64,000 bases of DNA from a bacterium (GTDB lineage: Bacteria; Patescibacteriota; Microgenomatia; UBA1406; GWC2-37-13), in contig JAJYOJ010000006.1 in assembly GCA_021796235.1 (NCBI GenBank), positions 1-64,000 on the forward strand, read 5' to 3'. A program made the position numbers and the translations under genes. Numbering within the stretch: position 1 is the first letter of the stretch; each line of letters starts with the position of its first letter. Positions 23,347 through 31,131 of the stretch are shown here, piece after piece. Under the pieces are notes generated by a model that saw only the letters and a list, made by a program, of their open reading frames with translations, was not told the DNA's origin and made no database searches.

Positions 23347-24305
23347 TGTTTGGCTTTACCAAGAAGAAGCTGAATTACAATCGTGATCAAAAACACCGCT
23401 AAAAAGAAACTTTCCCAGGTAAATTTTATCCGAAAAAAAACCGTCAAGACATAAATCACCAAAAAATGAACAAAATAAATAGAATAAGACTGAGAGCTCA
23501 TAAAAAAGAAGAACTTCTTAATAATTGGGATCGACATGAAAGGCTGCTTTCCTACCAAATATAAAAGAAACACGAAGAATATTCCGTAAGAAAGATGGTA
23601 AAGGTTGGGCGGGTATTTATTATTGTACATAACCAGTGAAAGATTATGAGCATATAAAATAGTCCAGAGGAATATAAAAAAAATAAGCGAGACCACAAGG
23701 CCGGAAAAAAGAAAAAAGCGCCTGGTTTCATATTTTACAAAATAAATACTAAAAATTACAATAAGCGACCAGGGTAAAAACATTGTCACCCGATAGTTTA
23801 GAGACAGTTTGTTTGTAATAAAAAAAAGACTTGACAGTAACGCTAAACACAGGTACGAGTAAAACAGTGTTTTATTTTTTTTATATAAAATAAGGAGGAC
23901 GGGAATTAAAACGCTGAAAATTAAAAACAAAAGGACTAACCAGTTAATGTCTACGCCGCCGGTGACTAAGAGATTTTGTAAAAGAAAAGACGCCGTTAAC
24001 TTCTTTGGCTCTCCCAAGTAAACCAGGGAAAGGAAAAAAATAAGAAAAATATAATAAGGAACAATTAATCTAGCAGCCCTTTTTTTTACATAAGTTAAAA
24101 GATGGAGATTTTCTGCGAGGTGTTTTTTAAAAACAATATAACAAGAGCAGAATATAAAAACTACAACCGCAAACTCGCCCGCATCCCAAAGAAAAAAAAC
24201 GGCTTTATTAGATAAAAAATAAGCGCCGGTATGAATAAATATTATTATAAGCATGGAAAAACCGCGTAAAAAATCTATGACAAAATATCGTTCGGTTTTT
24301 TTCAT
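23307..24305 (-). CDS. acyltransferase 3 (OafA-like) membrane protein
   Basis: 332 residues with about ten transmembrane helices. It begins RYFVIDFLRGFSMLIIIFIHTG; the DFLRG and following His are the conserved start of acyltransferase-3 enzymes, which transfer acyl groups to surface glycans. The ATG overlaps the stop of the PP-loop gene by 4 nt (ATGA), so translation is probably coupled. The C-terminal end overlaps the opposite-strand SpoIID-like gene by 40 bp. Confidence 0.8.
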   Translation of the reverse strand: MKKTERYFVIDFLRGFSMLIIIFIHTGAYFLSNKAVFFLWDAGEFAVVVFIFCSCYIVFKKHLAENLHLLTYVKKRAARLIVPYYIFLIFFLSLVYLGEPKKLTASFLLQNLLVTGGVDINWLVLLFLIFSVLIPVLLILYKKNKTLFYSYLCLALLSSLFFITNKLSLNYRVTMFLPWSLIVIFSIYFVKYETRRFFLFSGLVVSLIFFIFLWTILYAHNLSLVMYNNKYPPNLYHLSYGIFFVFLLYLVGKQPFMSIPIIKKFFFFMSSQSYSIYFVHFLVIYVLTVFFRIKFTWESFFLAVFLITIVIQLLLGKAKHYLFSTLNRGPII

Positions 24306-25687
24306 GAAAGTACACGTCTCAAATATTTGAAAGCGCTTTCACGTTCTTTTTCAAAAATTCGCAAAGCCCGCGTGCGAAGCGAGGACGGGAGAGACAAAGA
24401 AGAATGAAGACTAAAATATTCATTTATAAGTTTGGGCAGGCGTTTTTCAACCTCGGTAAGATAAAGAGACTTAAACTTTTCTATAAGGTCGCCCCTTGCC
24501 CCGTTTTTGTAGGCTAGATAAAAGGCTAAAAGCTGCTCATCTCTTCCTAAGCCGGATCCGCCGAAGGCGCTTTCTACTCCGCCGTTTTCAAAGATGACAT
24601 AATAACGTTCTTTATCTGCGCTTAACATATCCTCATTAAAGCCAACTTTTTTAGGCGAGATGTCGAGCGCTCTAAACATTATATAAAGACGGGCGCATTT
24701 TTCGCAGGCCCCACACCACCGACGGTTTTTGGCGCGGTCATTTTCCGAAAAGCAAGACATTTGAAATTTTCCAAAATCTGGATAGCGATTGTGAAGAATA
24801 AAAAGAATAAGGTGATCATGCAGCGGTTCTATAAGACTGCCAATATGAGTATCAATAAAAAATTGTTTAGGAATATCTTGAAGATGCTGCATACCAAAAA
24901 CGCTTTGCTCAAAAACTGGATTTATTAAAAAGCCCTCTTTATCTTTAACGGAATAGTTGACGCTTTGTTCATTTCCAAAAAAAAGATAACGGGTTTGATA
25001 GTAAAAATAATAAGGGACCAAAACGAAAGCGTATTGAGATAAAATAATATCCCACCCCCAGTAGAGATCTCTAGTTTGACGCAGTCTTCCTATGGATAAA
25101 GGAAAAAAAACAACTTCTTCATCGAGTTTATTGTAAAAACGGTCTGCGAGTTTACGTTTATGGGCATTTTCAAAAGCACTGTTTGGTTCCTGCATAAAAA
25201 CCGGTATTACCGACACACCAAGTTCATCCAGGAGCGCATAAGTTAAAAGACTGTCTTTGCCGAATGAAAAAAGAAGAATTGCGGTTTCTTTTAGATTGTG
25301 TTTGGTTTTTTTTCCACCGTAGGAATAATTTAAACCTTTATATTGGGTTTGGAAATTTACGTTGTAGAACTGTTTTATCAGGGAAGAGGTAAGAATATTT
25401 TTTTCTTTATTTTCAAAAACCGTCATAGGAATAGAGTACATAAGCATCTTAAAGAAAACCGGCTCAATCGGGGGGTGCGGAAAATGATAGGCGGTTGCGA
25501 CATCGTCAACCATTGGAAGATGCCAGGTCGCAATATAAGTTAAACTATCGGCAAAAACTTTATGAAGAGATTTAGGAAACTTTTTCCAAATTGCCTGGTC
25601 ATAGGTAACGCGAAATTTTTTTCTCTTAATTTTTATTTCTACACCGTTGCGCAAAACCTTGCGGAATATATGCAATGTTCTTGACAT
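24302..25687 (-). CDS. PP-loop ATP-pyrophosphatase-like protein with a Cys cluster
   Basis: 461 residues. ILLFSFGKDSLLTYALLDELG (near residue 140) resembles the PP-loop SGGxDS motif. About 180 residues later a WCGACEKCARLY cluster looks like a metal-binding site. The fold could suit an adenylating or sulfur-transfer enzyme. A relative of the MurL-type UDP-MurNAc-dipeptide epimerase is one possibility I recall with a similar Cys pattern, but I cannot confirm it. Translationally coupled to the acyltransferase (4-nt overlap), which points to a cell-envelope substrate. Function is unassigned. Confidence 0.55.
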   Translation of the reverse strand: MSRTLHIFRKVLRNGVEIKIKRKKFRVTYDQAIWKKFPKSLHKVFADSLTYIATWHLPMVDDVATAYHFPHPPIEPVFFKMLMYSIPMTVFENKEKNILTSSLIKQFYNVNFQTQYKGLNYSYGGKKTKHNLKETAILLFSFGKDSLLTYALLDELGVSVIPVFMQEPNSAFENAHKRKLADRFYNKLDEEVVFFPLSIGRLRQTRDLYWGWDIILSQYAFVLVPYYFYYQTRYLFFGNEQSVNYSVKDKEGFLINPVFEQSVFGMQHLQDIPKQFFIDTHIGSLIEPLHDHLILFILHNRYPDFGKFQMSCFSENDRAKNRRWCGACEKCARLYIMFRALDISPKKVGFNEDMLSADKERYYVIFENGGVESAFGGSGLGRDEQLLAFYLAYKNGARGDLIEKFKSLYLTEVEKRLPKLINEYFSLHSSLSLPSSLRTRALRIFEKERESAFKYLRRVLS

Positions 25688-26108: not shown

Positions 26109-26528
26109 CTATCTTCTAAAAATTCGGACTACCTTTCCATGAATGGTTTTTAAACTTAGGTGCGCCTGTTTAAGAAGAAATATTGCAAAAGTTGCCAACC
26201 AACGCAGTGAAGAAGTAATAGGCGCATGCAGTCCAACCACAACCTTTTCATCGGAGATGGGAAGCTTGATATTCTGATATGCCGGAAATTGGGTTGTGTT
26301 TGCAGTCTGAAGCCCCATCTTTTTAAGATCGGGAGGGATCTCGATTGTTTCGGCTCGCGGTCGAACGAAGGGGCGGACCTCCTCCTCCGGCTTATGTTCA
26401 ACCACTTCTTTAATTTCAATCTCTTTTGCATGGGGAGACGGTTCCGCCTCTTTTGGCTGCGATATTGGTTCATCCCGCTGTCGGTGTTTTTTTACCAGAT
26501 CATCGATTGGGGTGTAATTAGTTGGCAT
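26109..26528 (-). CDS. hypothetical protein, charged linker plus a C-terminal helical region
   Basis: 139 residues. The first 70 are Glu/Lys/Pro-rich and probably disordered. A short beta-like motif (QNIKLPISDEKVVVGLHAP) and a hydrophobic helix (about 108-125) with a basic tail follow. I do not recognise the family. It lies 20 nt downstream of the riboswitch-controlled unknown gene on the same strand and may be its operon partner. Confidence 0.5.
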   Translation of the reverse strand: MPTNYTPIDDLVKKHRQRDEPISQPKEAEPSPHAKEIEIKEVVEHKPEEEVRPFVRPRAETIEIPPDLKKMGLQTANTTQFPAYQNIKLPISDEKVVVGLHAPITSSLRWLATFAIFLLKQAHLSLKTIHGKVVRIFRR

Positions 26529-26548: not shown

Positions 26549-27661
26549 TTAATTGGCACTAAAGGTGTAATTTTCCGCAGCTCTCATTTCCTTATCGCAT
26601 CCTTCGCAAATAAAACATGGACCAAGACCGGGATTGAAATAATGTCCGCATTTTTGGCAGTTGCCGGTCTTGTCAAACTTATAATCAATTTTATCGTCTT
26701 TTTTCCTTAGTGGACTTCCCTGCGTTGCCAATCTTGACGCTGAAGACAGGTTGGGCAAATTAATTGTGAGGCGAGACGCCGGATCAAGATCGTCATTTCT
26801 GTCTACCGACCCTCCGCAACCGCCACCCAAAACTAAAACATCGGTGCCCCGTTCTTTCATTACGCCGCGATTGATCTCGTGATACGCCCAAGAAAGTTTT
26901 TCTTGTGAAATGCTTCCGCCCCCGAACGCTAATTTTGCCGCAAGGAGCTCAGTGTTTAATCTTCCTCGCAATCTTCCAGCAACTGATTCTCCGATAAGGC
27001 GCAAAATATTTTGTAAATCATGTTCCTCGCCGTTTTTCGCTGTAAAAATATGCTGTTTAAGATTATTTTTTTGTTCGAGAAAATCTTTAATTGAGAGGTT
27101 GGTTATAAATGGGGTTGTGATAAATTGCGCAATGCGTTCTTTTGGGTCGGTTATAAAATTAAGCAGTTGGTAGTTTTCGCCAAAAGATTCAGACAACCAT
27201 TTTTCGCCCAATTTATCAACAGAAATAGACATACAATTGGTTTTTTCTCCATCAAAATACAGCAAATAAAGCTGGCCGATATCGTAGTTAACTAAAGAAT
27301 ATTTATTAGGTTTTTCCGAAAAAGAAGCCGGCCCAGGAGGACTATAAAGAAATACCAAACGATTAGGGTTATTGACAGAGTCGAGAACGGCGTTTGACAG
27401 ACCTATATTATATAGTCCTCCCCGCTCTTCTTTATCAATCGGTAGCTCGTCGGTTTTTTTACTATTGATGTAAATTTTTCTGTCGGGTCCAAGATAATAA
27501 AAATTCGGAATCGAAATAACCTGGTCGCGGGCAGTATGAAGTTCATAGGCCTCAAGATTAACCTTCAGTTTTTGATATCTTTTCTCAGGAGGCAGAAGGC
27601 TGAGTGAAGCAGCCTCTTCCGGATTAAATCCCCAGCGCGCAAGCGTATTTGCTTCCAGCAT
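26549..27661 (-). CDS. unknown protein directly downstream of a cobalamin riboswitch
   Basis: 370 residues. I do not recognise the family. It looks soluble, with no signal peptide or membrane helix. Features are an N-terminal helical part, a beta-rich centre (VISIPNFYYLGPDRKIYIN...), a Gly-rich LGGGCGGSVDR segment near residue 280, and a C-terminal zinc-ribbon-like CQKCGHYFNPG with CFICEGC. The ATG at 27661 comes right after a cobalamin-riboswitch-like leader (27664-27770) whose last hairpin covers the ribosome-binding region. Upstream on the same strand are the adenosyltransferase, the B12-dependent ribonucleotide reductase and NrdR. This context argues that its expression responds to B12 level, but the biochemical role cannot be told from the sequence. 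Confidence 0.7.
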   Translation of the reverse strand: MLEANTLARWGFNPEEAASLSLLPPEKRYQKLKVNLEAYELHTARDQVISIPNFYYLGPDRKIYINSKKTDELPIDKEERGGLYNIGLSNAVLDSVNNPNRLVFLYSPPGPASFSEKPNKYSLVNYDIGQLYLLYFDGEKTNCMSISVDKLGEKWLSESFGENYQLLNFITDPKERIAQFITTPFITNLSIKDFLEQKNNLKQHIFTAKNGEEHDLQNILRLIGESVAGRLRGRLNTELLAAKLAFGGGSISQEKLSWAYHEINRGVMKERGTDVLVLGGGCGGSVDRNDDLDPASRLTINLPNLSSASRLATQGSPLRKKDDKIDYKFDKTGNCQKCGHYFNPGLGPCFICEGCDKEMRAAENYTFSAN

Positions 27662-27663
27662 AT

Positions 27664-27770
27664 TGTTCCCTGCTCGGGGTTAAAAGATTTGGGTAGTCTC
27701 GGGCTTTACCGTTGCGGCACAGCCTAGGATTTTCACCTAGTTCCTCCTATCCAAACCTAAAATTTTAAAC
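27664..27770 (-). promoter_or_regulatory. cobalamin (B12) riboswitch-like leader
   Basis: On the minus strand the leader contains GGAACTAGGTGAAAATCC (27744-27727), then CTGTGCCGCAACGGTAA (27722-27706), then GCCCGAGACTACCC. These are the conserved core blocks of cobalamin-class riboswitches in the right order and spacing. The final segment has a small CCC/GGG hairpin next to the AGGGAAC Shine-Dalgarno-like sequence, 7 nt before the ATG at 27661. That suggests translational control, with B12 binding hiding the ribosome-binding site. The match is made by eye, and I cannot verify the fold or the AdoCbl versus aquocobalamin subclass. Confidence 0.8.
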
Positions 27771-27772
27771 GT

Positions 27773-28291
27773 TCAAACCTCGATTTCCTTCTCTTTATTA
27801 TAGTATCTTGCCAAGACAAAAAACAAGTCAGATAGTCGATTGAGATACTTAATAATAATTTTCAGGTTTAGGTTTTCAATTTTCACAGAAAAAAGAACCA
27901 CTTTTCTTTCCGCGCGTCGACAAATAACTCGTAAAATTTGAAACCAGGCGGAGATTTCAGATCCCTGAGGAAGGATAAATCCATGAAGGGCTGGAAGTTT
28001 GACGCCTATTTTATCAATGAGTCTTTCAAAGTCATTGATCTTTTTCTCAGACACGGTTTTTTTATTTGTATCTCCGGCTAAAACCGACATAATTACATAG
28101 AGATCTTTTTGAATAGAGGTTAAATAAGCCTTTTGTTTTGGATCAACTGTTTTAGCGATAACTAAACCGATAAAACTTGTGAGTTCATCGACAGATCCAT
28201 AAGCTTCAACCTGAAGATCAGATTTCGCTACGCGTTTTCCACCAAACAATGATGTTTCACCCCGATCCCCAGTTTTTGTGTAGATAGGCAT
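27773..28291 (-). CDS. cob(I)alamin adenosyltransferase, PduO type
   Basis: 172 residues. The ATP-binding TKTGDRGETSLFGG (5-18), a CRRAERKV helix near residue 127 and YLNRLSDLFFVLAR near the C-terminus are the PduO family signature. It makes adenosylcobalamin, the cofactor of the class II ribonucleotide reductase encoded 3 nt upstream. The segment KIENLNLKIII looks like a low-complexity insertion. It is the last enzyme gene before the B12 riboswitch. Confidence 0.9.
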   Translation of the reverse strand: MPIYTKTGDRGETSLFGGKRVAKSDLQVEAYGSVDELTSFIGLVIAKTVDPKQKAYLTSIQKDLYVIMSVLAGDTNKKTVSEKKINDFERLIDKIGVKLPALHGFILPQGSEISAWFQILRVICRRAERKVVLFSVKIENLNLKIIIKYLNRLSDLFFVLARYYNKEKEIEV

Positions 28292-28294
28292 GTG

Positions 28295-30667
28295 TTAGCA
28301 CTCAGAATAGCCGCAACCGTAACATTTTTTGCAGCCTTCTTCATGTGCTAAGGTTGCTTCTCCGCATTGGGGGCAGATGTCAAACATGCCCGCGGCAGGT
28401 TCGGACTGGGCCTGCATTAAGCTGGGCTGAACTTCTTGGGTTACCAGCTGTGGTGCGCTTTTTATCTCACCATTACCATTGGTTTTTTTAACTGTTTCGT
28501 TTAGGCTGTAATGCATAGCCAAAACTTTAGCAACAGCGTCTGGCAAACTGCGAATTTTATCTTTGCCAAAACCCAAGGTTCGGGCGCCACCAATTCCCTG
28601 TAATTGTTCAATTATAGCCTTTATTCTATCTAGCGCCGAAAGGTTTGAAGAAAATCTTAGGGCTAGGGAAATCATTCTGCCAAATCCTTCAGCCATGGCA
28701 AAAATATCGCTTCCCGCCTTTCCAACGTTTATGAAAACCTCTAGCGGTTCGGGCGGGTTGCCTCCATTGGTATTTATAGTTATAAAAGCCACACCAACTG
28801 GCGTACCGATACGATAGGTTGCGCCATGCACCACCAAGGGGCGCGGTTTTATTTTGTACGGCATAGTTACAGGTTTTTGTTCTTCTTTTTTTTCGTCCAA
28901 CCGCTCAAGTACCCCAGCGCGTGAGCCGTCGCGCATATAAGTAATTCCTTTGAGCCCGAGTTTGTAGGCCAGCGTATAAAGTTTTTTTACATCATCAACT
29001 GTATGATTTTTAGGGGCGTTTACGGTTTTTGATATTGAAGCATCAACGTAGGGTTGTATAGCTGCCTGAACTTTTACATGATCTTCTGGTGTAAGTTCGT
29101 TGGCAGAAACAAACCACTCTGGTTTTTTTAACTTTCCATCTTTTATTTCTTTTTCATGTTTTTTATACCATCTCTCATAAAGATCGTGACGAATAATGTG
29201 TTCACCCAAACGATCCCGACGGATAAACTCAAATTCATAGACCGGTTCAATCCCCGATGTTGTTCCCGCCATAAGCGAAGTTGAACCGGTTGGCGCCTGC
29301 ATCAAAAGAATTGAGTTTCGTATTCCGTATTTTTTAATATTTTCTTGAATATCTCTGGGGAGAGCCTGAATAAAAAGTCCTTTGGCATAAAGCTGTCTGT
29401 CAAATTTAGGGAATGTTTTTTTGTCTCTTGCTCCCTCAATTGAAGCGCGATAGGCCTCGTCGCGAATGGTTTTATATATTTTATTAATTATTTTAAGAGA
29501 CGCTTCCGATCCATAACGTAGATGCATTTTAATCAAAGCATCGCCCAAACCCATTGTTCCCACTCCGATTCTTCTTTCACCATTAAGCTGGGTTTGTTTA
29601 ATTCCCGGAAAAACATAAGGATCCATATCGACAATGTTGTCCTGAAAACGGGCGGCAACTCGCGCCAGTTTTTTTAGGGTTTTAAAATCAAAAACTCCCG
29701 CCCGGTCAACGTCTTTAGTTTTGACAAGCGCCGAAAGATTAATCGAACCAAGGTTACAAACCCCCCAGGGCGGAAGCCCCTCTTCTCCACAAGGGTTTAC
29801 GCAGTTAATCCTATTCCAGTAATAATTATTATTCCATTTATTATAGCGCTCCATAAAAACAACCCCTGGCTCGGCAGATTTCCAGGCTGCAGCGGAGATA
29901 AGATCCCAAATTTTTCTGGCCTTAACAATCTTATGGACGATTATTTTTTTGCCTAGAGATTTCCAAACCTCCAGGTCCCCATCCCATTTTTCATCGTATT
30001 CCGGGTCTGTTACATCGGGAAAGACCAGCGGCCAATCGGCGTCTTTTTCAACCGCCTCCATAAATTGATCCGATACACAAAGTGAAAGATTAGCACCATT
30101 AATTCTACTTAAATCTTGTTTTACAGTTATGAATTCCTCGATATCCGGATGCCAGTCCCAAAGCATAAGCATCAAGGCTCCACGACGAGTTCCGCCCTGT
30201 TGAATAATGTCTTTAGTCGCAACTGAAAAAAGCTCAGCCCAGTTGCAGGGGCCTGAAGAAAAACCGTTGACTTTTTTTACTCGGGAACCTTTGGGGCGAA
30301 GTGAAGAAAGATTTATCCCGACACCCCCACCTCGCGCCATAATTTCAACCATCTGTTTTAAAGTTTCTAAAATACCACCTCTGCTGTCTTTGGGGCTTGG
30401 TATAACGAAGCAGTTGTAGAAAGTGACAGAATATCCCGTACCGGCGCCGGCCAATATTCTTCCACCTGGCACATATTTAAAATCTTTCATTGCCCAGAAA
30501 AATTCTTTTTCCCATCTTTTCCTTTTGTTAGATTTTTCAGTTATGGCGACGGCTTTAGCTACTCTTTTCCACGTCTCATCTGGTGTTTTCTCAAGCGGCT
30601 TTCCAGCTTTGTCTTTCAATGAATAACGGTCCAAGAAAACCTTTTCAGAAACGCCGGAAAGTTTCAT
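28295..30667 (-). CDS. nrdJ: adenosylcobalamin-dependent (class II) ribonucleoside-triphosphate or -diphosphate reductase
   Basis: About 790 residues. An early Cys in VTFYNCFVIP, the active-site region NPCGEEGLPPWGVCNLGSINLS, and MQAPTGSTS are present. The C-terminal Cys array CPQCGEATLAHEEGC ending CGYSEC is the redox-active tail. These features place it in the B12-dependent NrdJ family, which needs no oxygen or metal-radical subunit. The ATG at 30667 is preferred over an in-frame TTG three codons upstream. NrdR precedes it by 20 nt and the adenosyltransferase follows by 3 nt, so enzyme, cofactor supply and regulator form one operon. Confidence 0.95.
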   Translation of the reverse strand: MKLSGVSEKVFLDRYSLKDKAGKPLEKTPDETWKRVAKAVAITEKSNKRKRWEKEFFWAMKDFKYVPGGRILAGAGTGYSVTFYNCFVIPSPKDSRGGILETLKQMVEIMARGGGVGINLSSLRPKGSRVKKVNGFSSGPCNWAELFSVATKDIIQQGGTRRGALMLMLWDWHPDIEEFITVKQDLSRINGANLSLCVSDQFMEAVEKDADWPLVFPDVTDPEYDEKWDGDLEVWKSLGKKIIVHKIVKARKIWDLISAAAWKSAEPGVVFMERYNKWNNNYYWNRINCVNPCGEEGLPPWGVCNLGSINLSALVKTKDVDRAGVFDFKTLKKLARVAARFQDNIVDMDPYVFPGIKQTQLNGERRIGVGTMGLGDALIKMHLRYGSEASLKIINKIYKTIRDEAYRASIEGARDKKTFPKFDRQLYAKGLFIQALPRDIQENIKKYGIRNSILLMQAPTGSTSLMAGTTSGIEPVYEFEFIRRDRLGEHIIRHDLYERWYKKHEKEIKDGKLKKPEWFVSANELTPEDHVKVQAAIQPYVDASISKTVNAPKNHTVDDVKKLYTLAYKLGLKGITYMRDGSRAGVLERLDEKKEEQKPVTMPYKIKPRPLVVHGATYRIGTPVGVAFITINTNGGNPPEPLEVFINVGKAGSDIFAMAEGFGRMISLALRFSSNLSALDRIKAIIEQLQGIGGARTLGFGKDKIRSLPDAVAKVLAMHYSLNETVKKTNGNGEIKSAPQLVTQEVQPSLMQAQSEPAAGMFDICPQCGEATLAHEEGCKKCYGCGYSEC

Positions 30668-30687
30668 ATAATTCAAACGAGATAAAT

Positions 30688-31131
30688 TTATAATTTTTTT
30701 AGTTCCTTCTCAAAATCTTCCAAGTCAACAAACCTGCGAAAAACACTGGCAAAGCGAATATAGGCTATCTTATCAACTTTTTTCAACTTCTTCGCCACTA
30801 AATTCCCAATGACCTTACTTTCTACCTCAGTTGATTCCCCTGTTTTTAGCTCTTCCTCTACTTCGGAAACGATCTTTTCGATGTCACCTGCAGTTACCGT
30901 AGTTTTTTCACAGGATTTCAGTATACCATTTCTTAATTTCTCCCTGTCAAATCTTTCGCGTTTTCCCTCTCTTTTTATTACTAAGATCGGTAACTCCTCG
31001 AGCCTTTCATAAGTTGTAAATCGTTTATCGCACTTCGGACAACGCCTGCGCCGTCTTATCACCGTTCCGTCTTCGGACACGCGTGTTTCAATGACCTCTG
31101 TGTCATTATTTTTGCAAAATATACAGTACAT
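30688..31131 (-). CDS. nrdR: transcriptional repressor NrdR
   Basis: 147 residues. An N-terminal zinc ribbon (CIFC at 3-6 and CPKC at about 31-34) and an ATP-cone domain (VIKREGKRERFDREKL...) are both present. NrdR senses dATP/ATP and represses ribonucleotide reductase genes. It lies 20 nt upstream of nrdJ and so probably regulates its own operon. An inverted repeat lies upstream at 31171-31203. Confidence 0.95.
   Translation of the reverse strand: MYCIFCKNNDTEVIETRVSEDGTVIRRRRRCPKCDKRFTTYERLEELPILVIKREGKRERFDREKLRNGILKSCEKTTVTAGDIEKIVSEVEEELKTGESTEVESKVIGNLVAKKLKKVDKIAYIRFASVFRRFVDLEDFEKELKKL

Follow-up and report, generated by a model that had tools for sequence, protein, structure and literature searches.

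A cobalamin riboswitch precedes an undescribed, fast-evolving protein family beside the class II ribonucleotide reductase genes of Microgenomates

What does a cobalamin riboswitch control when the gene behind it belongs to no recognised family? The question is raised by a minus-strand operon in the window, a 64,000-nucleotide stretch of DNA from a bacterium of the class Microgenomates, in which such a switch is followed by the gene for a 370-residue protein and is itself preceded by genes of B12-dependent deoxynucleotide synthesis (Table 1). PduO, the class II reductase NrdJ and the regulator NrdR had been named as the upstream neighbours in a sequence-only reading of the locus, and all three assignments were reproduced by profile searches. 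The 370-residue protein and its relatives are hereafter called FAM. While the riboswitch itself belongs to a known type, no description of the protein family under its control was found in the libraries searched.

Table 1. Features of the riboswitch-controlled locus (positions refer to the window)
Feature	Position	Strand	Basis
C4, 139 aa, directly behind FAM	26109..26528	-	neighbourhood clusters
FAM, 370 aa, riboswitch-controlled, undescribed family	26549..27661	-	homologs behind B12 riboswitches; AlphaFold
Zinc-ribbon cysteines C335, C338, C349, C352, C355	26597..26659	-	invariant or nearly invariant columns
Cys282 codon, conserved G-x-C-(G/P) motif	26816..26818	-	homolog alignments
Hairpin CCCCGAGCAGGG, overlapping the ribosome-binding region; presumed translational expression platform	27668..27679	-	predicted MFE structure
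AdoCbl-II (cobalamin) riboswitch aptamer	27686..27757	-	Rfam RF01689, RF00174
PduO-type cob(I)alamin adenosyltransferase	27773..28291	-	PF01923 4.4e-52; TIGR00636 1.8e-51
NrdJ, class II B12-dependent ribonucleotide reductase	28295..30676	-	TIGR02504 1.1e-169
NrdR transcriptional regulator	30688..31131	-	TIGR00244 3.6e-56

The cobalamin riboswitch that had been proposed for the minus-strand leader was recovered when the whole window was compared with all Rfam models: RF01689 scored 43.3 bits (E 4.5e-7), above its gathering threshold of 36.5, and the covariance-model search matched the full AdoCbl-II aptamer (model positions 1-81). The same site is also matched by RF00174 with 32.7 bits, and it is the only site that either model finds in the genome (922 kb, 21 contigs). 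It is the covariance model which lends significance to the riboswitch and not the fold z-score of the leader, as the latter (-1.06) is unremarkable taken alone. The aptamer ends ∼25 nt 5' of the ATG of FAM, and between them the MFE structure contains a short CCC/GGG hairpin, which stops 6 nt ahead of the ATG, next to the ribosome-binding region, just as the sequence-only reading had it. In 43 of 50 homologs a C-run/GG hairpin likewise overlaps the ribosome-binding region ahead of the start codon; hence, this is a conserved expression platform and, by its appearance, a translational one. With a score that reaches the curated threshold, its position in the leader and a hairpin beside it that covers the ribosome-binding site, the element agrees with other AdoCbl-II/cobalamin riboswitches (RF01689, RF00174). 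Their known targets, however, are recognised transport, synthesis and isozyme genes, whereas the target here is an undescribed protein family. In the open-access literature searched, no paper dealt with cobalamin riboswitches from the Patescibacteria or the Candidate Phyla Radiation.

FAM is composed of a core (residues ∼1-290), a disordered linker (295-328) and a zinc-ribbon tail (331-370). Its earlier description as a soluble, unrecognised protein with C-terminal cysteine clusters holds: Pfam and NCBIfam searches yielded no family, the maximum 19-residue Kyte-Doolittle value is 0.89 with no hydrophobic segment, no signal peptide or transmembrane segment was seen, and the clustered cysteines lie within the tail. 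Two AlphaFold models, one of the protein itself (pLDDT 84.7, 36 homologs) and one with a distant member as query (pLDDT 82.5, 43 homologs), both predict a folded core that a disordered linker joins to a C-terminal zinc ribbon. In Foldseek searches of the PDB neither model had a match at E <= 0.001, the top rows being misaligned noise; PAS/TagF-like rows in one of these searches were not significant. The first model likewise had no match at this threshold among the predicted viral structures of BFVD, and the comparison of PDB sequences with the family profile gave nothing but generic zinc ribbons and chance matches, with E values of at least 0.018. Consequently, no likeness to B12-binding, transport or chaperone proteins was detected in Pfam, NCBIfam, PDB sequences or the Foldseek searches of PDB and BFVD. 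In the homolog alignments R80, S107-P108 and the zinc-ribbon cysteines are invariant or nearly so, and 46 of 50 homologs carry the G-x-C pattern according to a motif search. R80, S107-P108, G-x-C and the C-terminal zinc-ribbon cysteines, which occur in one fixed order, are proposed as the signature of the family.

Relatives of FAM were detected by phmmer in 17 of the 281 class genomes searched and by a wider profile in 114 of 329, and a first profile, applied to the taxonomic family, matched 38 of 72 genomes; a member carried by Ca. Gottesmanbacteria RIFCSPHIGHO2_02_FULL_39_14 identifies the class as the Microgenomates. All matches of the first profile in a phylum-wide sample fell within the Microgenomates, and no relatives were found on the viral contigs searched. 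A cobalamin riboswitch was detected in 160 of the 329 genomes, nearly always one per genome, and Rfam scans of the homologous loci placed RF00174 or RF01689 beside nearly every FAM homolog. In 68 of the 70 sampled genomes for which both a listed riboswitch and a FAM match are present, the switch lies directly upstream of FAM on the same strand. The class-wide scan assigned a switch to 42 of 58 strong FAM genes, and a closer scan of the remaining 16 revealed a switch before 10, a weak match only before 2 and none before 2. As the other 2 are cut by a contig start, 56 genes are evaluable, and 52 of these have a B12 riboswitch upstream, either immediately or one gene away with only pduO between. 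Thus, the homologs in other Microgenomates, which had been suggested as a check on the locus, are preceded by a B12 riboswitch almost without exception, and the predicted regulation of FAM by this switch is well supported.

The analysis also covered 60 of the loci at which the switch is not followed by a profile match. Here, an iterative profile search recruited ∼20 of the downstream ORFs to FAM, and several more share its layout; the non-FAM genes in this position code mainly for DUF4430/DUF6580 or for large proteins of 540-740 aa. Such large proteins, encoded immediately downstream of B12 riboswitches in further families of the class (L158, L161, L167, L169, L170, L172, L183, L184, L192, L195, L196, L197, L203), are partly of low complexity and could be given no identity by eye. 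The large protein of family f25 is a relative of FAM in its core, with which it aligns over 144 columns (hhalign E 4.5e-6). For the large riboswitch proteins of f9 and f12/f22/f36, orthology to FAM is suggested by their place in the operon only and was not supported by profile comparison. In f10 genomes, in which no NrdJ is recognisable (G143 = L202, L220-L222), weak riboswitch matches precede a distantly similar protein; at L202 this is a 650-aa protein with an SPPG motif. MetE was rejected as a class-wide target of the switch, as a MetE-like gene behind a cobalamin riboswitch was seen only on one 4,159-bp contig (G256:C12; L144/L053); this switch is a second and very typical one, scoring 98.7 bits, and is more likely a contaminant.

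The conserved gene order is NrdR-NrdJ-PduO-switch-FAM-C4. C4 was retained in 12 of 21 loci compared, no Pfam family was found for it or for one of its orthologues, and in some relatives it lies close to PrgI/VirB4-type genes. At seven loci of f18/f31 the switch is located between nrdJ and pduO, so that both PduO and FAM stand behind it. In f25/f12 the order is switch-large protein-DUF4430-DUF6580-C4, and in f20/f41 DUF4430-DUF6580 follow the switch directly. Like FAM, DUF4430 (PF14478) and DUF6580 (PF20221) are thus encoded behind B12 riboswitches beside NrdJ/PduO in related genomes, but they are a membrane-anchored domain and an integral membrane protein, different from FAM. The C-terminal domain of transcobalamin is of the DUF4430 type (PMC4350170), and one DUF6580 protein has a weak similarity to ECF S components (E 1.8e-4); the pair is therefore a probable B12 uptake system.

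Across the class the NrdJ profile matches 296 of the 329 sampled genomes, 261 of them above the profile cutoff, and the switch is commoner where NrdJ is strong (about 148 of 270 genomes vs 12 of 59; Fisher p 1e-6). The nrdJ frame reaches 1141-1594 aa in G630, G637, G639, G651 and G665, where the matches are split by long in-frame inserts, as expected for inteins. Other neighbours vary. At L092 (1317-5451, genome G030) FAM, the gene for a Fur-like regulator and those for a metal ABC transporter, which appears ZnuABC-like by eye, follow the riboswitch on one strand; Fur-like genes also occur near FAM in L084, L054 and L100, with CooC-like ATPases (by eye) in two of these loci. Such neighbours hint at a zinc link. 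The protein encoded at 24302-25687 of the window (461 aa) has a CGACEKC cluster and an SFGKDS motif that is PP-loop-like; no Pfam match was found for it.

Beyond what the sequence-only reading had described, FAM proved to be a class-wide and extremely fast-evolving family with interchangeable zinc-ribbon tails. In the 12 genomes holding all four genes the mean pairwise identity is 20% for FAM, compared with 49% for PduO, 68% for NrdR and 74% for NrdJ. On related cores the tails fall into about seven types (according to our own grouping), and their distribution on the core tree requires at least 23 switches between types, where 6 would be the minimum possible; even the close relatives L011/L015 and L032 carry different types. 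The C-terminal zinc ribbon has therefore been exchanged repeatedly. The strong matches of a profile of tail type A are FAM proteins alone (60 genomes), by which a role as a general secretion or targeting tag was rejected for this type. Fast evolution and tail exchange fit an ordinary metabolic enzyme poorly and leave room for an outward-acting role.

The explanation favoured here, with confidence and doubt in about equal measure, is that FAM is an AdoCbl-repressed protein which acquires or handles B12 for the class II ribonucleotide reductase, in line with the earlier suggestion of an undescribed part of B12 handling. When AdoCbl is sufficient, the AdoCbl-II riboswitch would repress the translation of FAM, with the ribosome-binding site masked within the hairpin. 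The aptamer and the hairpin are observed, while the direction and mechanism of control would be those of the known riboswitch family. When AdoCbl is short, FAM would be made together with C4, as would, elsewhere in the class, PduO or the DUF4430/DUF6580 pair; FAM would then serve corrinoid acquisition or intracellular handling, whereupon PduO would load the adjacent reductase. As to its biochemical activity, FAM may plausibly be a soluble corrinoid chaperone or receptor, the conserved G-x-C cysteine of which contacts cobalt, and that the zinc-ribbon tail may be a replaceable module for stabilisation or for the docking of partners. Cobalt ligation by Cys282 is plausible by analogy with the transporter BtuM, in which a cysteine serves as the axial cobalt ligand (PMC6072759). 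The conserved cysteine and the link to B12 acquisition nevertheless make this a possible functional parallel only, given that BtuM is an integral membrane protein, whereas FAM is soluble and its predicted fold is unmatched.

Several observations count against B12 acquisition or handling. FAM resembles B12 proteins neither in sequence nor in predicted fold and has no membrane segment or signal peptide, and its divergence is unusually fast for a cofactor-handling enzyme. The weak riboswitch matches in f10 genomes with no recognisable NrdJ and the unsupported homology of the f9/f12 proteins in the same slot also speak against it.

The sequence-only reading had also offered an alternative to a B12-dependent step, that is, a B12-sparing bypass in which FAM replaces or relieves such a step (deoxynucleotide supply) when B12 is scarce. 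B12-independent isozymes are classic targets of B12 riboswitches, as MetE replaces MetH and NrdAB replaces NrdJ; MetE and NrdAB/NrdDG under such switches obey the regulatory logic proposed for FAM, being repressed with B12 present. The riboswitch before the MetE-like gene on G256:C12, the location of FAM next to the one recognised B12-dependent enzyme and the conserved R80, S107-P108 and Cys282, which could be catalytic, would all suit this role. However, FAM has no sequence or predicted-fold likeness to these isozymes, Pfam, NCBIfam and PDB folds gave no homology to ribonucleotide reductases or other deoxynucleotide-forming enzymes, and, as neither AlphaFold model shares a fold with any PDB entry, none is shared with a reductase. 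Nor does the distribution of FAM replace NrdJ, which is present in 44 of 44 good genomes of the taxonomic family. A bypass thus appears unlikely, and acquisition or handling is preferred to it because FAM coexists with NrdJ and because PduO and the putative uptake pair are under this switch in other lineages.

The rapid divergence of FAM relative to NrdJ and PduO and the frequent change of its tail would be explained if the protein, induced by B12 starvation, acted outwards on host or neighbouring cells through B12 release, capture or competition. Microgenomates presumably rely on other cells, and PrgI/VirB4-type secretion genes (named by eye) are located nearby in several genomes, but this proximity may be inherited synteny. 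As FAM has no signal peptide or membrane segment, and as the strong matches of the type A tail to FAM proteins alone show that this type is no general export tag, the outward-acting role seems decidedly improbable. Very unlikely is a factor that binds NrdJ or NrdR and protects, regulates or reactivates the reductase at low AdoCbl, for although the operon is shared with NrdR-NrdJ-PduO and diol-dehydratase reactivases provide a precedent, the partner of so conserved an enzyme as NrdJ is not expected to diverge to this extent, and FAM lies far from nrdJ in several genomes (L084, L099-L101).

To return to acquisition or handling of B12, FAM might found a new class of cobalamin-handling proteins of unmatched fold, by which B12 would be obtained or processed for the class II reductase throughout the Microgenomates, with rapid diversification and tail exchange perhaps directed against different partner cells; this wider proposal is made tentatively, with more doubt than confidence. 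Most sampled Microgenomates appear to make their deoxynucleotides via the B12-dependent enzyme, and in the genome of the window not even a DUF6580 uptake candidate was found. That about half of the genomes place one gene behind a B12 sensor points at a missing B12 factor. For the part of B12 acquisition or handling that is missing in Microgenomates FAM is a strong candidate, and, as a single family to express and assay, it makes the B12 supply of these bacteria a testable question.
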